Below are positions 25,379-37,287 of a stretch of DNA of 64,000 nt, piece after piece. The notes under the pieces are model-generated. The model ran no database searches and was not told the DNA's origin. It saw nothing but the letters and a program-made list of their open reading frames with translations. Position 1 is the first letter of the stretch. Each line of letters starts with the position of its first letter. The DNA is from Amycolatopsis thermophila (GTDB taxonomy: Bacteria; Actinomycetota; Actinomycetes; Mycobacteriales; Pseudonocardiaceae), in NCBI RefSeq assembly GCF_030814215.1, contig NZ_JAUSUT010000001.1:186001-250000 (forward strand), read 5' to 3'. The position numbers and the translations under genes were made by a program.

Positions 25379-25393
25379 GATTGTGCAACATTC
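25379..25393. promoter_or_regulatory. Near-palindrome GATTGTGCAACATTC upstream of merR
   Basis: Matches 13 of 15 bases of the perfect palindrome at 21958. It sits 56-70 bp 5' of the MerR ATG, in the range of promoter or operator elements. Confidence 0.4.
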
Positions 25394-25454
25394 GCGAGGC
25401 AGATGGTTGATGATCGGCACGATGGGCGGGTCGGGCTCCGGTGCCCGGCCCGCC

Positions 25455-26443
25455 TCAGGTCCCGACCTGCACCACGTACTTGCCCCGTCCGAGCCCGCCG
25501 GCGAGAAGGTCGTGGACCGGCGCGACGGACCCGAGCGACTCGACAACGGTGATGTCGGGCCGGACGCTGCCCCTGGCGATCAGTTCGAAACCGTTGGTCA
25601 ACGCCTCGGCAGCGGCACGCGGGTTGCTCGCGGTGAGCCGGCTCATGCTGAACCCGATGATCCCCACGTTGCCCCCGATGAGGCGTCCCGCCTGCGGCAG
25701 CGGTGCCGGGGTGCCGCCGGCGGCGTTGCCGAACAGGACGACCCGTCCGCCAGGCGCCGCGAGGCTCAGGTCGAGGTCGAGCAACCCCGTTCCGGTGGGG
25801 TCGAGGATGACGTCGACGCCGCCGGGGGCGACCTTGTGAACCGCTTCGGCCAGGTCGTCGTCACGGGCGAACACGTCGTCCCAGCCCGCGGCGAGGCCGT
25901 CGGCGATCTTGCCGGCCCGGCCGACCGTGCCGATCCTGCGCCCGCTGCCGAGCGTCGCGGCCAGCTGGCTCACGACCGAGCCGAGGCCGCCGCTCGCCGA
26001 GTGCATGAGCACGGTCTCGCCGAGCCGAATGCGAGCCCGCTCGGTGAGCAGGAGCACAGCGGTCGACACGACCAGCGGTGCGGACGCCGCCGTCTCGAGC
26101 GGGATGCCGTCGGGCACGCTCACGGTGACCTCGGCATTCGCGAGGGCGACCTCCGCGAGACCGCCGCCGGGCGTGAACGCCGCCACCCGCTGGCCGACCT
26201 GCTTGTCAGTCACCCCGGCGCCGACCGCACGGACCGTGCCGGCCACCTCGCGTGGTCGAGGTGGCGACACCCGAGCCCGGCCCCGGTCAGGTGGCCATCG
26301 ACGTCGCCTACGCGGGCATCAACTTCATCGACGTCATGGCCCGCCGCGGAGATCCCGGTTACGCGTCCGCGTGGCCGTACGTCCCCGGCCTCGCTCGTCG
26401 CGCTGCCATCCGCCGCAGGTTCGGACATGAGCAAAGCTTTCAC
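25455..26443 (-). pseudogene. Quinone oxidoreductase (zinc-type ADH family) broken by internal inversion
   Basis: The minus strand encodes the first 16 codons (26443 down to 26396: MKALLMSEPAADGSAT) and the last ~264 codons (26248 down to 25455: VAGTVRAVGAGV through GKYVVQVGT, including the NADP-binding SASGGLGSVVSQLA). The missing piece (VVEVATPEPGPGQ through PYVPGL) is on the plus strand at 26249-26393. Flipping that block back and dropping two extra bases (26394-26395) gives 48 + 145 + 794 = 987 nt, exactly 328 codons plus stop and in frame throughout. The restored protein has the normal length of NADPH:quinone reductases. As it stands the gene cannot make the enzyme. Confidence 0.85.
26249..26393 (+). 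other. 145-bp inverted block inside the oxidoreductase gene
   Basis: Read on the plus strand it encodes the N-terminal strands of the same family (GQVAIDVAYAGINFIDVM and GDPGYASAWPYVPGL). At the left junction CCACCT meets CGCGTGG exactly as expected. At the right junction GGCCTCG is followed by an added CT before CGTCGCGCTG. There are no flanking inverted repeats long enough for site-specific flipping. Confidence 0.8.
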
Positions 26444-26476
26444 AACAGCTCCTGATTCACCATTCGTCGTACCTGG

Positions 26477-27331
26477 TCAGCTCTCGCCGGCGACGGTCAC
26501 CGGGCCGGGCACGGTGTCGCCGAGGATGCGGCCGACGTAACGACCGCGGTCCAGCACACCGGGATCGTCATGCGCGGGCACGACGAACCGGTACTGCCGC
26601 GCCGCCTTCGCCGCCGCCATCTCCTGCAACACCGAAGTCGTGAAGTTGTTCGTCAGCGCAGGATCGTCGATGGCCAGGTACGTCGGCTGCACTCCTGCGA
26701 CGAACCCGTCCCGCGGCTGGTTCCGGAGTGCGCCTTCCACGTCGTAGAACAGGTCGCCGCACAGATACGCCTCCCCTTCACCGGTGTCGACGACCACTCC
26801 GATGGAACCGGGGGTGTGCCCGCCGGACAGCCGGCAGGTGACGCCGGGGAACAACTCCTCACCCGCACCCGGGTGGTCCAGGTCCAGGAACCGCAGGGCA
26901 CCCGGCGTGTACAACCGGTCGATCAGGTGGTGGAGGTCGTCCTTCGCGTAGGCACGTCCCTGGATTCCGGTGCAGGCACCGCCGAGCTCGCTCCGGTTCA
27001 CCACCACCGGGACCGTCATCGGGACGCGGTGCAGGTGCCCGGCGTGGTCTCGATGCAGGTGGGTGAGGATGACGCAGGTGAGGTCGCCGGGTTCGAGCCC
27101 GTGCGCCCCGAGCTGCTCCTCGAAACCTTGCCCCGGTGCGATTTCGCCGCCTGCGCCGAGGACCGAGGGGTCCCGGTACCCGGCGTCGACGAGGATCGGC
27201 CCTGCCTCTCCCTCGAGCAGGAAACCCTGTGCGGGCACGGCGATGCGGTGTCCCGGCGCGATGCCGCGCAGGCGCATCGACTCGTCGATGACGACCGAGC
27301 CGAAGTTGAGCCGGTGGATCCGGTAGGTCAT
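26477..27331 (-). CDS. Metallo-beta-lactamase-fold hydrolase, lactonase-like
   Basis: 284 residues, ATG 27331 with GGAGG 7 nt upstream. The zinc motif is H91-x-H93-x-D95-H96 (THLHRDHAGH). Later ligands are LSGGHTPGS (His), CGDLF (Asp) and VPAHDD (His), as in the AHL-lactonase/GntR-associated MBL subgroup. The predicted reaction is hydrolysis of a lactone or similar ester in the cytoplasm. It is last in the operon cupin - MFS - DUF3870 - MBL, 1 bp after the DUF3870 stop. With an importer and a cupin in the same operon, catabolism of an imported lactone or organic acid is plausible. Confidence 0.85.
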   Translation of the reverse strand: MTYRIHRLNFGSVVIDESMRLRGIAPGHRIAVPAQGFLLEGEAGPILVDAGYRDPSVLGAGGEIAPGQGFEEQLGAHGLEPGDLTCVILTHLHRDHAGHLHRVPMTVPVVVNRSELGGACTGIQGRAYAKDDLHHLIDRLYTPGALRFLDLDHPGAGEELFPGVTCRLSGGHTPGSIGVVVDTGEGEAYLCGDLFYDVEGALRNQPRDGFVAGVQPTYLAIDDPALTNNFTTSVLQEMAAAKAARQYRFVVPAHDDPGVLDRGRYVGRILGDTVPGPVTVAGES

Positions 27332-27332
27332 C

Positions 27333-27704
27333 TCATCCCTCCGCGTGGCGCAGGTAGCGCCGGAATGCGTCGGCGACCGCCTGCCTGATCGCGCCTCCGC
27401 CCTGGCCGAGGTAGTTCTGTTCGATGGCGGTGAGCACTGGCGTGACGTCACCCCGGAGATCGAGGCCGAGCAGGAGCTCCGCGAGCCAGGACCGGACCAA
27501 GCCGGTCGCGGCCGTCGAGTCGACCTCGATCACGGTGCCGGTGCGCCGGTCGACCCGAAGGCAGACCGAGAACAGCTGGTGCACTCCGTGCGACGCGGAG
27601 GTCGCCGGCACCTTCGCATATCCGACGACGATGAGGTTGTCTGCCACTGTCATCGCCGGAGTCTGCCACGGCTGTGCCGCCGGCCGCGCCGCCGCGGCGA
27701 TCAC
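27333..27704 (-). CDS. DUF3870-family protein
   Basis: 123 residues from GTG 27704, which overlaps the MFS stop (GTGA). The conserved part begins NLIVVGYAKVP and continues with FSVCLRVDRRTGTVIEVDST and LLGLDLRGDVTPVLTAIEQNYLGQGGGAIRQAV, the pattern of DUF3870 proteins found beside catabolic operons. There is no enzyme motif. Translational coupling to an ACS-type transporter and an MBL hydrolase suggests a helper role in use of the same substrate. I know of no proven function. Confidence 0.82.
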   Translation of the reverse strand: MIAAAARPAAQPWQTPAMTVADNLIVVGYAKVPATSASHGVHQLFSVCLRVDRRTGTVIEVDSTAATGLVRSWLAELLLGLDLRGDVTPVLTAIEQNYLGQGGGAIRQAVADAFRRYLRHAEG

Positions 27705-28945
27705 GGTGAGACCTTCGCGGATTCGGGTGTCGGCGCGGTGACCGCCGGCCGGGCACGGGCCAGGCTCAGGCACACCGCACCGAGAAGCATGCCGGCCACC
27801 ATCGCGAGGAACACCGGGGTGAACGAACCGCTCACCTGGATGAGCCAGCCGATCAGCAACGGCCCGAGCAAACCGGCGAGCTGGGTGCCCATGTTGATGA
27901 ACCCGAGCCACGTGCCGACCTCGTGCGGCCGGACCACGTCCATCGGGACGGACCAGAACGGGCCCAGCCCCGAGTAGAGGAAGAACCCGGCCGCCGTCAG
28001 GAACACGCCGGAAAGGGTCGCGCCGGCCGCGAGCACCGTCAGCGCGATGAAGATCGCGGTGAGCAGATAGGTGGCCGCGACGAAGTACCGCCTCGAGTTG
28101 TTGAACCACCGCTGACACAGCCACGCGCCCGACAGCATGCCGACGGTCCCGGCCACGAACGGGAGGGTGGCGAACACCCCGGTCTTGGCCACGGTCAGCC
28201 CGCGATAGGTGAGCAGGTAGGTCGGCAACCACGTCATGAGCCCGTAGAGCACGAATCCGAAGAAGAAGAACGCCGCGAAGGTGAGCCAGATGTGCGGTAC
28301 CCACCACTGGCGCGGCTCGCGGGGACCACGGACCTCCGGCTCGGTGCGCAGGTTCCGCGTGCCCGGCCTGTCCCACATGAAGAACAGCACGAGCGGGACG
28401 CACAACACCCCGGGGATGATGGTGGCGTAGAAGACCCAGCGCCAGCCGAGGTGCGTGACGAGGGGGAAGGCGATCGACGGGGCCACGGCGGGACCGAGCG
28501 TCAACGCGGTGAGCATCAACGCCAGAGGCAGCGAACGCCGCCCGACCGGGAACCAGTTGGCGAGTGCGCGCCACAGTGGAGGCGCGTGGAACCCCTCACC
28601 CGCTCCCATGAGCAGACGCACCGCCAGCAACGCGGCGAGGCTCCCGGCGACCGCACCGGTGAGGACGCTGAACACGGTCCACCACGCGATCGCCGCCGCG
28701 ATCACGCGGCGCTGCCCGATCCGGTCGGACAACCGCCCGGCAGGAACCTGCACGATCGTGTAGCTGAGGAACAACGCGCCGGAGATCAGCCCGGCTGTGG
28801 ACGGCTTGATCCCCAGCTCGCGGGTGATGAACGGCAGTGCCGATCCGAGTGCGACGCGGTCGAAGTAGGAGACCAGCAGCGTCACCCACAGGATGCCCAG
28901 GACGATCCAGCGGTACCGCCCCGTGGAGGCCAGCTTCACCGTCAT
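27701..28945 (-). CDS. MFS transporter, anion:cation symporter-like
   Basis: 414 residues if it starts at ATG 28945 (GTG 28948 adds one). Twelve predicted helices; the N-terminal half has YFDRVALGSALPFI and the loop 2-3 motif GRLSDRIGQRRVI. Sequence type fits the ACS group that imports organic anions such as glucarate, tartrate or aromatic acids. The start overlaps the cupin stop (TGATG), and its stop overlaps the DUF3870 start, so it sits in the middle of a tightly coupled operon. Confidence 0.88.
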   Translation of the reverse strand: MTVKLASTGRYRWIVLGILWVTLLVSYFDRVALGSALPFITRELGIKPSTAGLISGALFLSYTIVQVPAGRLSDRIGQRRVIAAAIAWWTVFSVLTGAVAGSLAALLAVRLLMGAGEGFHAPPLWRALANWFPVGRRSLPLALMLTALTLGPAVAPSIAFPLVTHLGWRWVFYATIIPGVLCVPLVLFFMWDRPGTRNLRTEPEVRGPREPRQWWVPHIWLTFAAFFFFGFVLYGLMTWLPTYLLTYRGLTVAKTGVFATLPFVAGTVGMLSGAWLCQRWFNNSRRYFVAATYLLTAIFIALTVLAAGATLSGVFLTAAGFFLYSGLGPFWSVPMDVVRPHEVGTWLGFINMGTQLAGLLGPLLIGWLIQVSGSFTPVFLAMVAGMLLGAVCLSLARARPAVTAPTPESAKVSP

Positions 28946-29412
28946 CACCCGGCTTTCCGCTCGGCGACGGAAGGGTCGAACCCGGCCCCCTCGGGGAGGA
29001 ACTCGTTGACCGGCGAGCCGAGGAACTCCGGGACCTCGTCCTCATCGTGCAGACCGACCGCGAAGCTCTTGATCAGCGGGTCGTCCTGCAGGCCCGGGGT
29101 GTGGACCTCGAGCAGTGTGCATGGCGCTTCGGACTTGTTCCACGACCAGTGGACCTTGCCCGCGGGGATGCGCAGGAAATCCCCGGCCTCGAGGTGGAAC
29201 GCACGGTCTTCGACGAACACCCACAGTTCGCCGTCGCGCAGCCAGTTGAGCTGCTCGCAGTCGTGGGTGTGCGGGCGCGAGTGGTAGCCCGCCGGGCGGG
29301 TGGCGATCATGAGGGACGAGGAGTTCCCGAAGACCGCTTTCGTCGTGAACGACGTGGTGCCCATGTCGGCGGTCTCTTCCGGAACCGAATCGCCGCGAAC
29401 GTGGATCGGCAC
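28945..29412 (-). CDS. Cupin-domain protein
   Basis: 155 residues, GTG start with GGGAG upstream. The single conserved beta-barrel has motif 1 RPHTHDCEQLNWLRDGELWV with the metal-binding His pair and Glu, then motif 2 DFLRIPAGKVHWSWN with the final His. It could be a dioxygenase, isomerase or ligand-binding protein. It is first in the operon with an MFS importer, DUF3870 and an MBL hydrolase, so action on the same carbon source is likely. Substrate unknown. Confidence 0.85.
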   Translation of the reverse strand: MPIHVRGDSVPEETADMGTTSFTTKAVFGNSSSLMIATRPAGYHSRPHTHDCEQLNWLRDGELWVFVEDRAFHLEAGDFLRIPAGKVHWSWNKSEAPCTLLEVHTPGLQDDPLIKSFAVGLHDEDEVPEFLGSPVNEFLPEGAGFDPSVAERKAG

Positions 29413-29457
29413 AGCATCTCCCTTGACGCATTCGACTGGTGGCGCTTCGCGACACCT

Positions 29458-29472
29458 GTCAAGGGAGTTGAC
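29458..29472. promoter_or_regulatory. Inverted repeat GTCAA-GGGAG-TTGAC upstream of cupin operon
   Basis: 5-bp arms, 46-60 bp upstream of the cupin start. The left arm is also part of a TTGACA (minus-strand reading of 29457-29462), a consensus -35 for the operon. A regulator could act here; the adjacent TetR gene is broken. Confidence 0.4.
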
Positions 29473-29563
29473 GCGATACTCGGGGCGGCGTGGCTCGAGC
29501 TCTGCTCGTCAGTCACCGCTCCATCAGCGTCAGCTGTTGACCGGCGCAAGCGTAACCACGGGA

Positions 29564-29966
29564 GTGCCGGCAGGCAAGACGTTCAGGCTCAGGGACCGAG
29601 GCGCTGCACGCCGCGCTGGAGGTGTTCTGGCGGCAGGGCTACGAGGCCACCTCGATGCAGGACCTGGTCGACCACGTGGGCGTCAACTTGTACGCCACCT
29701 ACGGCAGCAAGCACGACCTCGGCCCGGCCCGGCCCTCGAGGCCGTCCGCGACTTCATCCGGTCCTACGTCGCCGATTCGCGTTCGGACAGCCGGGGTGGC
29801 CTAATCACCAACACCGCGACCGAACTGCTCCCGCACGACGCCAAGGCGGCCCGCCGGGCCGACATCGCGTTCGGCGAACTCGAGGCGCCACCGGCGGGCA
29901 CCCTCTCCCGCGCCCAGCAGGAGGGCGACCTCGCCGAGGGCAAGGACCCGCCCGCGCTCGCCCGGC
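29564..29966 (+). pseudogene. TetR regulator remnant, frameshifted
   Basis: Recognisable TetR pieces lie in two frames. The helix-turn-helix [19 protein letters not shown] with [14 protein letters not shown] ends near 29720. The ligand-domain piece [11 protein letters not shown], then NTATELLPHDAKAARRADIA, and AQQEGDLAEGKDPPALARR runs in another frame to 29966. The N-terminus is also out of frame with the helix-turn-helix near 29600. The C-terminal end is lost where MFS sequence begins. It was probably the regulator of one of the flanking operons before decay. Confidence 0.75.
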
Positions 29967-30567
29967 GTGTTCGCCGTGGTCACCAGCGAGTTCGTCGTCG
30001 CCGACCTGATGCCCCAGCTCCCGAAGACCGCGCTCATGACGCTGTTCGCGATCTTCCTGGCCGGCAACGTGCTGGCCGCGACCGCGAGCGGCTACAGCAC
30101 GATGATGACCGCCCGCATCGTCACCGGCGTCGCCGGGCAGGCGTTCTTCGGCACCGGCATCGCGCTGACCGCGCAGCTCACCCGCCCGGAGGTCCGCGGC
30201 CGCGCGATCGCGGTGGTCATGAACGGTCTCATGCTGGGCACCCTGCTCGGGCTGCCGCTCGCGACCGTCGTCGGCCGCGGCCACCGTGATCGGCAACCTG
30301 GTCGTCGGGCGGCTCGCCGACCGCCGCACCATCCCCGTGCTGGTCGCCGGTCTCGCACTGAACCTGGTCTTCCTCGTCGCGTTCGCGCTGCTCGCGGACC
30401 TGCCCGCGCCGGCGGTCGCGGCGATGCTCGGCATCGGGCTCACCGGCGTCACGATGAACCCGGCGATGGTGACGCGTGTGCAGCGCGCCGACAACGGCCT
30501 GGTGGGCCTGCTGCCCGAACTGGTGCGCCGTCGCGGGCACGCCCCGGTCATGCAGCCGTGCGCCTGA
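29967..30567 (+). pseudogene. MFS (DHA1-like) transporter remnant with internal deletions
   Basis: The first piece (29967-30290) reads SEFVVADLMPQ joined directly to LPKTALMTLFAIFLAGNVLA, skipping about 40 residues, and continues to MLGTLLGLPLATVVG. The second piece is in another frame (30286-30567): GNLVVGRLADRRTIPVLVAG through GIGLTGVTMNPAMVTRVQ; roughly 70 residues are missing at the join. Its 5' edge abuts the TetR remnant without a gap, indicating a deletion between two formerly separate genes. Confidence 0.75.
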
Positions 30568-31393
30568 CCTGGCCCGACAGGAAGGTCCACATCAGACCGG
30601 TCGCGCCGGCCGGCCAGGCGTGCGTGACCCCGGAGTACACGAGGGACTGCACGGCGGACCCGCCCGCGCACCCCGTCCACGTCGTGACCACCGCCGGTGA
30701 CACGCGCCGCGACGAGGACGCGGGCGGGCACGCGTCGAGCGTGCGCCAGGTCGCGGACGCGTGCTCGGCGACCTGGGCGCCGTGCCCGAGCACGCGGTCG
30801 CCGGTTCCGGCGGCGACGAGTGCGGACAGCCCCTTCGCGGCCGGGTTGGTGCACGGGGCAGGCGGCGCGGCACCGTAGGTCGCGAAGGCGGCGAACAGGC
30901 CGGGCGAGACGCACGCGAGGTGGAACGCGAGCCGGCCGCCGTTGCTGTAGCCGACGAGGTACACGCGGCGTGGGTCGGACGTGAACGCGTGGGCCGCGTC
31001 GGCGACGACCGCCGCGATGAACGAGGTGTCGTCGACCCGCTGCCGTGCCGCGATGCCGCAGCACCCGCTGCCCGCGTTCCACGATTGTCCGATTCCGGCC
31101 GGATACACGATATCGGCCAGTCCCTGTTCCGCATAACCCAGGAAACCGGTCTGCACCGCACCATTCCGGACATCGACACCACGGCCGTGCAGAACCACCA
31201 GCAACGGCAGTCCGGAATGAGCCTTTTCCGGCCGGACCGCCAGATAGGTCCGGCTGAGGTGACCGGCCGGCAGCGTGCGCGTCTCGATCGAGATGCCCTG
31301 CCCCGCCAGGGAATCCGCCTTCACCGGCGCGGCGCACCCGGCCAGCGCGACGCACAGCAGGAACACCGGGATCCCTCGTCGCCACCGCGCCAT
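30548..31393 (-). CDS. Lipoprotein alpha/beta-hydrolase, PHB-depolymerase/LpqC-like esterase
   Basis: 281 residues from ATG 31393, with AGGA upstream. The signal peptide ends in lipobox LAGC with Cys20, so the protein is probably membrane-anchored outside the cell. The hydrolase fold shows LLVVLHGRG, nucleophile Ser150 in GYSNGG, and a late His in GVTHAWP. The LpqC/depolymerase group cleaves short polyester or feruloyl-type esters. CysCys at 111-112 and other Cys may form disulfides. It is convergent with the MFS remnant, whose last bases overlap its 3' end by 20 bp. Confidence 0.82.
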   Translation of the reverse strand: MARWRRGIPVFLLCVALAGCAAPVKADSLAGQGISIETRTLPAGHLSRTYLAVRPEKAHSGLPLLVVLHGRGVDVRNGAVQTGFLGYAEQGLADIVYPAGIGQSWNAGSGCCGIAARQRVDDTSFIAAVVADAAHAFTSDPRRVYLVGYSNGGRLAFHLACVSPGLFAAFATYGAAPPAPCTNPAAKGLSALVAAGTGDRVLGHGAQVAEHASATWRTLDACPPASSSRRVSPAVVTTWTGCAGGSAVQSLVYSGVTHAWPAGATGLMWTFLSGQVRRTAA

Positions 31394-36601: not shown

Positions 36602-37192
36602 GACCTGTCCTCAAAGTGGGTTCGGTTGTTCTGCTTTGATCAACGGGATGTTGTTCAAGGGCAGGACGGAGGCGGCGTGGCGGGACCTGCCCGAGCGTTA
36701 GGGGCCGTGGAGGACGGTCTATCACCGGTTCTGGCGCTGGTCACGCAACGGCACCTCGAGCATGCTGGTGTCGACGGTGCGGGTGGTCGCCCACGCGATC
36801 GACGAGCTCGATCGTGAGGTGTCGATCGATTCCAGCGTCGTGCGTGCCCACCACCACGCCGCTGGTGCTCGCCGGACGAGCTCACACAGGGGGCGAGCGG
36901 ATCTTCCGGCGGCACAGCGAGCCAGGTGAGCATGCCCTCGATCGTTCGCGCGGGGGACCGACCACCACAATCCACCTCGCCTGTCACGGTCACCGCCGGC
37001 CCCTGCCGGTCGTGCTGACCGGCGGGAACATCAACGACTGCACCATGGTCAGCCGCAACGTGGTCGAACGCTGCTTCAACCGCCTCAAGCAGTCCCGCGC
37101 CATCGCCACCCGCTTCGACAAAACCGCCACCTCACACCACGGCATGATCGACCTGGCCACCCTGCTCATCTGGCTTTGAGGACACGCCCTAG
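36598..37192. mobile_element. Decayed IS5-family element with both terminal repeats
   Basis: About 595 bp. Left end CTAGGACCTGTCCTCAAA (36598-36615) and right end TTTGAGGACACGCCCTAG (37175-37192) are inverted copies with two mismatches. CTAG borders both sides and may include the target duplication. Typical actinobacterial IS5 elements are around 850 bp, so some internal sequence is gone. Confidence 0.8.
36648..37179 (+). pseudogene. IS5-type DDE transposase remnant
   Basis: Opening frame MLFKGRTEAAWRDLPER runs into an in-frame TAG at 36699, where related transposases have Tyr in RYGPWRTVY. The frame then continues through HRFWRWSRNG, DELDREVSIDSSVVRAHHHA (first catalytic Asp), shifts phase, resumes at RSRGGPTTTIHLACHG, and ends VERCFNRLKQSRAIATRFDKT. 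The stretch between the second Asp and the final Glu region is deleted. Not functional. Confidence 0.8.
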
Positions 37193-37287
37193 GGAGGTCC
37201 AGCGGCAGGGGGCGCCAGGAGCTGGTGACCGTGACGCGTGCGTTGTGATCATGATGTGACACGGGGACTTGTGGCGCGCGCCGCGAC

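Follow-up and report, generated by a model that had tools for sequence, protein, structure and literature searches.

We found that a quinone-oxidoreductase-like (QOR-like) gene within the analysed stretch of DNA (the window, 64,000 nucleotides, G000:C1:186001-250000) is split by a small internal inversion. The reading that we favour, to which we assign a probability of roughly 0.8, is that a recent, natural microinversion left by repair disabled this gene, probably via end-joining. The segment is reversed relative to intact orthologues while its flanks are collinear with them, and the changed state belongs to this genome. On this reading the gene is a pseudogene and is better annotated as such than as a 271-residue dehydrogenase; the frame that remains is missing the initial portion of the GroES-like domain and probably would not yield a working enzyme. 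The mutation is of an ordinary kind, unusually well resolved, and provides a base-resolved intragenic microinversion in a bacterium that lacks the inverted repeats to which events of this kind are usually attributed. Among the papers listed in literature searches, which leave absence unproven, none dealt with microinversions of bacterial genes that lack inverted repeats.

The broken gene is readable as two pieces of one protein. Most of an oxidoreductase of the MDR type, as judged by Pfam and NCBIfam, is encoded by a 271-codon open frame on the minus strand (25455-26270), and the N-terminal start of the same family is encoded by a plus-strand frame (26252-26392) that sits inside the minus-strand gene. 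On the TIGR02824 profile, the N-terminal piece occupies positions 18-63 (E 1.2e-4) and the C-terminal piece positions 64-324 (E 4.5e-37), which are consecutive. The original prediction held that re-inverting 145 bp and removing two bases would restore a 987-nt gene of 328 codons with a normal start. We reproduced this result: flipping 26249-26393 and dropping 26394-26395 gives 987 nt and one open 328-codon frame, for which the start codon is GTG. The restored protein is identical at 275 of 328 residues to the protein of genome G012 (locus L017), which also comprises 328 codons. Seven placements, with lengths of 139-145 nt, score equally against both relatives described below (breakpoint pairs 26244-26259 x 26383-26401), and the 145 nt used here is among them. 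The stretch is 2 nt longer than in the relatives (989 nt for the broken gene versus 987 nt for the restored one), and this addition is certain, whereas its position is not; flipping alone yielded an open frame for none of 550 placements. When 26200-26450 was compared with its own genome, the single match was the region itself, and we reject a duplicate copy as the source of the inverted piece.

Table 1. Positions of the broken gene, its junctions and its neighbours within the window.
Feature	Position	Strand	Remarks
Collinear 3' part of the broken QOR-like oxidoreductase gene	25455-26250	-	Still open, within the 271-codon frame
Inverted block, N-terminal residues of the same protein	26251-26393	+	143 nt; placement of each end uncertain by 1-2 nt
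Net gain of 2 nt (CG), which may be read as a duplicated CG present at both junctions	26392-26393		Exact placement ambiguous
Gene 5' end, GTG start and first 16 codons	26394-26443	-	
9-bp perfect hairpin over the left junction	26242-26265		One copy of the 9-bp direct repeat flipped
4.2-kb block with the broken gene and neighbours	25392-29600		G004 and G012 lack it at the syntenic site
Metallo-beta-lactamase (MBL)-fold hydrolase adjoining the broken gene	26477-27331	-	Start MTYRIH chosen; ORF to 27451
DUF3870 protein	27333-27710	-	
MFS transporter	27701-28948	-	
Cupin protein	28945-29412	-	
Relic of a TetR-type regulator and MFS transporter gene	29601-30570	+	Five large clean deletions

To place the inversion among relatives, the DNA of the gene was searched across the genus (19 genomes, its own included). 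Three of the 18 other genomes hold the gene over most of its length at an identity of at least 70%, with complete copies in G012 and G004 and a partial copy in G015 that is cut by contig ends and was set aside; the remaining genomes gave short matches or none. The orthologues in G012 (L017; 82% amino-acid identity, 328 codons) and G004 (L018; 78%, 327 codons) are both open and share the same start. The block at 26251-26393 aligns on the strand opposite to its flanks, with 90% identity over 143 nt to L017 (E 6e-53) and 88% over 143 nt to L018 (E 1e-48). The left flank aligns in one direction up to 26250, from 25443 (L017) or 25448 (L018), and the right flank returns to that first direction from 26388 (L017) or 26383 (L018). 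An opposite-strand block between collinear flanks in both loci bears out the claim that a small internal inversion splits an oxidoreductase gene, and the intact orthologues in G012 and G004 supply a collinear N-terminus of the kind that had been put forward as support. The N-terminal and C-terminal protein pieces were searched in 12 loci and were collinear on one strand in ten (L001, L002, L005, L009, L012, L014, L015, L020, L084 and L085), several of which are distant homologues with 31-35% identity. The uninverted order is that of two congeneric genomes with the full gene and eight more distant homologues. The gene is missing from the other two loci, L086 and L087, which represent syntenic sites, and a weak 30% match to the C-terminal piece at L086 was treated as a paralogue. 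This test of collinearity covered all of the first set of 15 loci but eight (L003, L004, L006-L008, L010, L011 and L013).

The best profile match of the intact orthologue L017 is TIGR02824 (E 3e-50), and L017 also matches the solved quinone oxidoreductases PDB 1yb5 and 1qor. These profile and structure matches liken it to the QOR and PIG3-like quinone oxidoreductases of the MDR superfamily, but its score of 171.1 bits lies under the family cut-off of 296.8, and L017 is a relative of the TIGR02824 family and not a member by that model. The ancestral gene would have been an intact, 328-codon gene for a quinone-oxidoreductase-like MDR enzyme that ended a minus-strand run in the order cupin, MFS, DUF3870, MBL and QOR; all five genes within the 4.2-kb block lie on the minus strand. 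From 26400 to approximately 29500, no other genome of the genus appeared among the matches listed at E 1e-15.

The TetR-MFS relic lies 3.3 kb from the broken gene. In G004 and G012, the same pair of genes has open frames. Its large deletions measure 64, 192, 111, 284 and 138 nt and are accompanied by losses of 9 and 6 nt, with junction microhomology of 0-3 nt at five junctions relative to G004 and at four relative to G012. A counterpart of the 284-nt gap is present in all nine other genomes that have both flanking pieces among the matches listed, measuring 284 nt in G001, G002, G004, G008, G010, G012, G015 and G017 when match ends are allowed for, and 266 nt in G013. Farther along the window, a stretch at approximately 36640-37200 is repeated elsewhere in the genome with up to 94% identity and is perhaps the remnant of a mobile element.

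We also evaluated the age of the break from codon changes, using the leading 215 of the 264 codons in the C-terminal part together with 45 of the block's 47. The counts are unrooted, such that changes scored as window-specific include the branch common to the two relatives. Values of dN/dS against the two relatives were 0.20 and 0.31 for the C-terminal part and 0.055 and 0.059 for the inverted block, and the window-specific changes in the block comprised six synonymous and zero nonsynonymous ones. Third positions account for 45 of 78 window-specific changes in the QOR gene, compared with 87 of 137 in two neighbouring genes that are intact (p 0.47). Because the codon positions do not differ significantly from those of intact neighbours, the break looks recent, and the gene looks to have been under constraint until recently. 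The ratio of synonymous to nonsynonymous changes in the C-terminal part is 37.3:25.7 here versus 16:6 in L017 and 13:9 in L018, which leaves room for a mild relaxation of the QOR gene. In the TetR-MFS relic, codon positions are relaxed (41 of 96 at third positions versus the 87 of 137 in neighbours, p 0.002), and a direct comparison of the relic with the QOR gene gave p 0.067. Since the relic is relaxed and the QOR gene is not significantly so, the relic is probably the older wreck, and the data do not support one common catastrophe behind both the inversion and the deletions in the TetR-MFS pair.

How the segment came to be reversed can be weighed from its junctions. Among the causes offered by the original prediction, a repair error fits best and a recombinase fits least. 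In the latter case, a recombinase would flip the segment reversibly to switch the gene or generate isoforms. The block shares with bacterial invertons an inverted segment, which here lies within one coding sequence, and Chanin and colleagues reportedly described such intragenic invertons of bacteria in 2024. The resemblance ends there, as the block lacks flanking inverted repeats beyond chance and does not look reversible. Inverted matches at the junctions reach at most 3 nt in the closest 8 nt and at most 7 nt in the closest 25 nt, the latter a length reached by 28.6% of 2000 random pairs. Near the breakpoints of the collinear order they reach at most 5 nt, which is matched by 3594 of 5000 random pairs. 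The ends are thus without inverted repeats beyond chance, as had first been noted. Invertons carry inverted repeats of 10-40 nt on either side and are reversible (PMC11892184), and this block shows neither repeats of that kind nor, in the 550 flips above, an alternative coding state. Because flipping alone opens no frame and the ends lack inverted repeats, we reject a reversible switch. We also reject a serine recombinase as the agent, as PF00239 has no match in the genome whereas the control matches in 10 of 14, and the reading as a reversible inverton is very improbable.

An assembly fault, in which the chromosome would carry the uninverted gene and the contig would be wrong at this site, is improbable to a lesser degree. 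The absence of significant decay in the gene is what a fault would also show, and a second flipped segment in the same assembly, described below, could reflect a systematic fault. However, the genome is a single contig of 7.3 Mb that is 99.7% complete and 0.19% contaminated, single alignment blocks to G012 extend up to approximately 15 kb, and a fault would have to flip approximately 143 bp and also add 2 bp. Furthermore, the TetR-MFS relic, which has similar clean junctions, shows relaxed codon positions, which points to biology at that site. Given a real inversion, we lean towards end-joining as the mechanism, with odds slightly better than even, because the nearby deletion scars share its type of junction and inverted repeats that could guide the event are missing. 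Pseudogenes broken by end-joining scars have clean junctions with 0-3 nt of microhomology. The QOR gene resembles them in its clean junctions, where a 2-nt duplication is found with no long inverted match. Ku and LigD_N each have two matches in the genome that exceed the cut-off, and the same mechanism may have acted here. A piece of 141-143 bp that codes for N-terminal residues would have been released or copied and then rejoined back to front, after which CG would stand at both junctions. From two breaks, Ku/LigD end-joining would leave these junctions through back-to-front ligation, provided that a 2-nt 5' overhang (CG) was filled in at one cut and that the other cut was blunt. This scheme could account for every base and would make an untemplated base unnecessary.

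Template switching during replication, with one jump to the complementary strand and one back, would fit nearly as well as end-joining, and we regard it as a possible, less probable origin of a real inversion. All bases would be templated, with 1 and 2 nt of microhomology at the jumps as determined by hand from the alignment, and the left breakpoint falls at CTCGAG in L017 and TTCGAG in L018. Against it, inverted repeats to guide the jumps are lacking, and the nearby deletions have junctions like those of end-joining. In one primate study, inverted repeats flanked every microinversion, and a pair of breaks only about 20 nt from each other was judged unlikely (PMC8755829). The segment studied here is similar to those primate microinversions in being short and precisely copied in reverse orientation, yet they measure 17-33 nt, all with flanking inverted repeats (PMC8755829), whereas the present segment is approximately 143 nt long, its inverted repeats do not exceed chance, and it shows a 9-bp direct repeat and 2 additional nt. 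The approximately 143 nt between the ends eases, and does not remove, the objection to two nearby breaks.

The direct repeat, GCCACCTCG, lies near both breakpoints in the collinear order. A 9-bp direct repeat arose by chance in 54 of 5000 random pairs and, in coding stretches, in 35 of 3000, with both comparisons made post hoc. By eye, the repeat derives from two stretches that code for Glu-Val-Ala, and the corresponding sites share exact matches of 5 nt (L017) and 4 nt (L018). The flip turns the repeat into a 9-bp hairpin over the left junction, and 20 such hairpins start within the window. Simple end-joining does not predict the repeat, which is a post hoc oddity for which we see no mechanism that would turn it into an inversion.

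We determined a base rate for such scars by comparing 800 kb of this genome with 800 kb of G012. The alignment covered 446 kb, in 285 blocks, and contained 27 clean gaps of 20-1500 nt on the side of this genome and 15 on that of G012; these counts are unpolarised, and some gaps have repeats of at least 20 nt at their ends. As the gaps are partly clustered on both sides, such clustering is not special to this genome. One cluster of four clean gaps relative to G012 (368, 162, 339 and 114 nt) lies outside the window at G000:C1:258100-259580. Seven opposite-strand rows were detected in gaps, consisting of one that belongs to a large inversion, two rows at 369,053-369,126 of this genome and four rows of 24-37 nt. 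The rows at 369 kb correspond to a second microinversion (G000:C1:369053-369126; approximately 9053-9126 of L115) of approximately 50 nt, with deletions alongside. By eye, the segment looks like the 3' terminus of a gene for a sigma factor. In each of the eight other genomes that match it (G001, G002, G004, G009, G010, G012, G013 and G017), it is reversed with respect to one or both flanks. Because this genome is the changed one at the 369-kb site too, the QOR inversion is rare but not unique. The original description of an inversion without repeats as rare therefore stands in part and needs softening, given the second microinversion and the clean deletions in the same genome. In E. coli mutation-accumulation lines, inversions are among the rare classes, with one in the wild type and one in delta-mutS, and tandem duplications numbered zero in the wild type and one in delta-mutS (PMC10292909).

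These sites hint, if only modestly, that the pattern extends more widely in this genome. We tentatively suggest, as a conjecture that may well prove wrong, that the dying genes of this actinobacterial lineage are cut by repeated short-range end-joining, which would yield clustered clean deletions of tens to hundreds of nucleotides and occasional fragments of 50-150 nt rejoined in inverted orientation. If so, the pieces of such genes would stay readable in order, and the inverted ones would document how short stretches of DNA break and are ligated again in the genome of a bacterium in nature. The inversion, the 369-kb site and the deletion clusters form a collection of scars on which the frequency of short-fragment rearrangement by bacterial end-joining could be tested. 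The genome itself is GC-rich. It has three rRNA operons, its 16S rRNA is 91.8% identical to that of Tsukamurella, and its matches to PPE (PF00823) score 35.9 bits at most; set against typical values, these features lead us to conclude that the organism is not a Mycobacterium. Speaking against this judgement, four of the seven PPE matches exceed the curated cut-off of 26 bits, compared with none in 14 control genomes.
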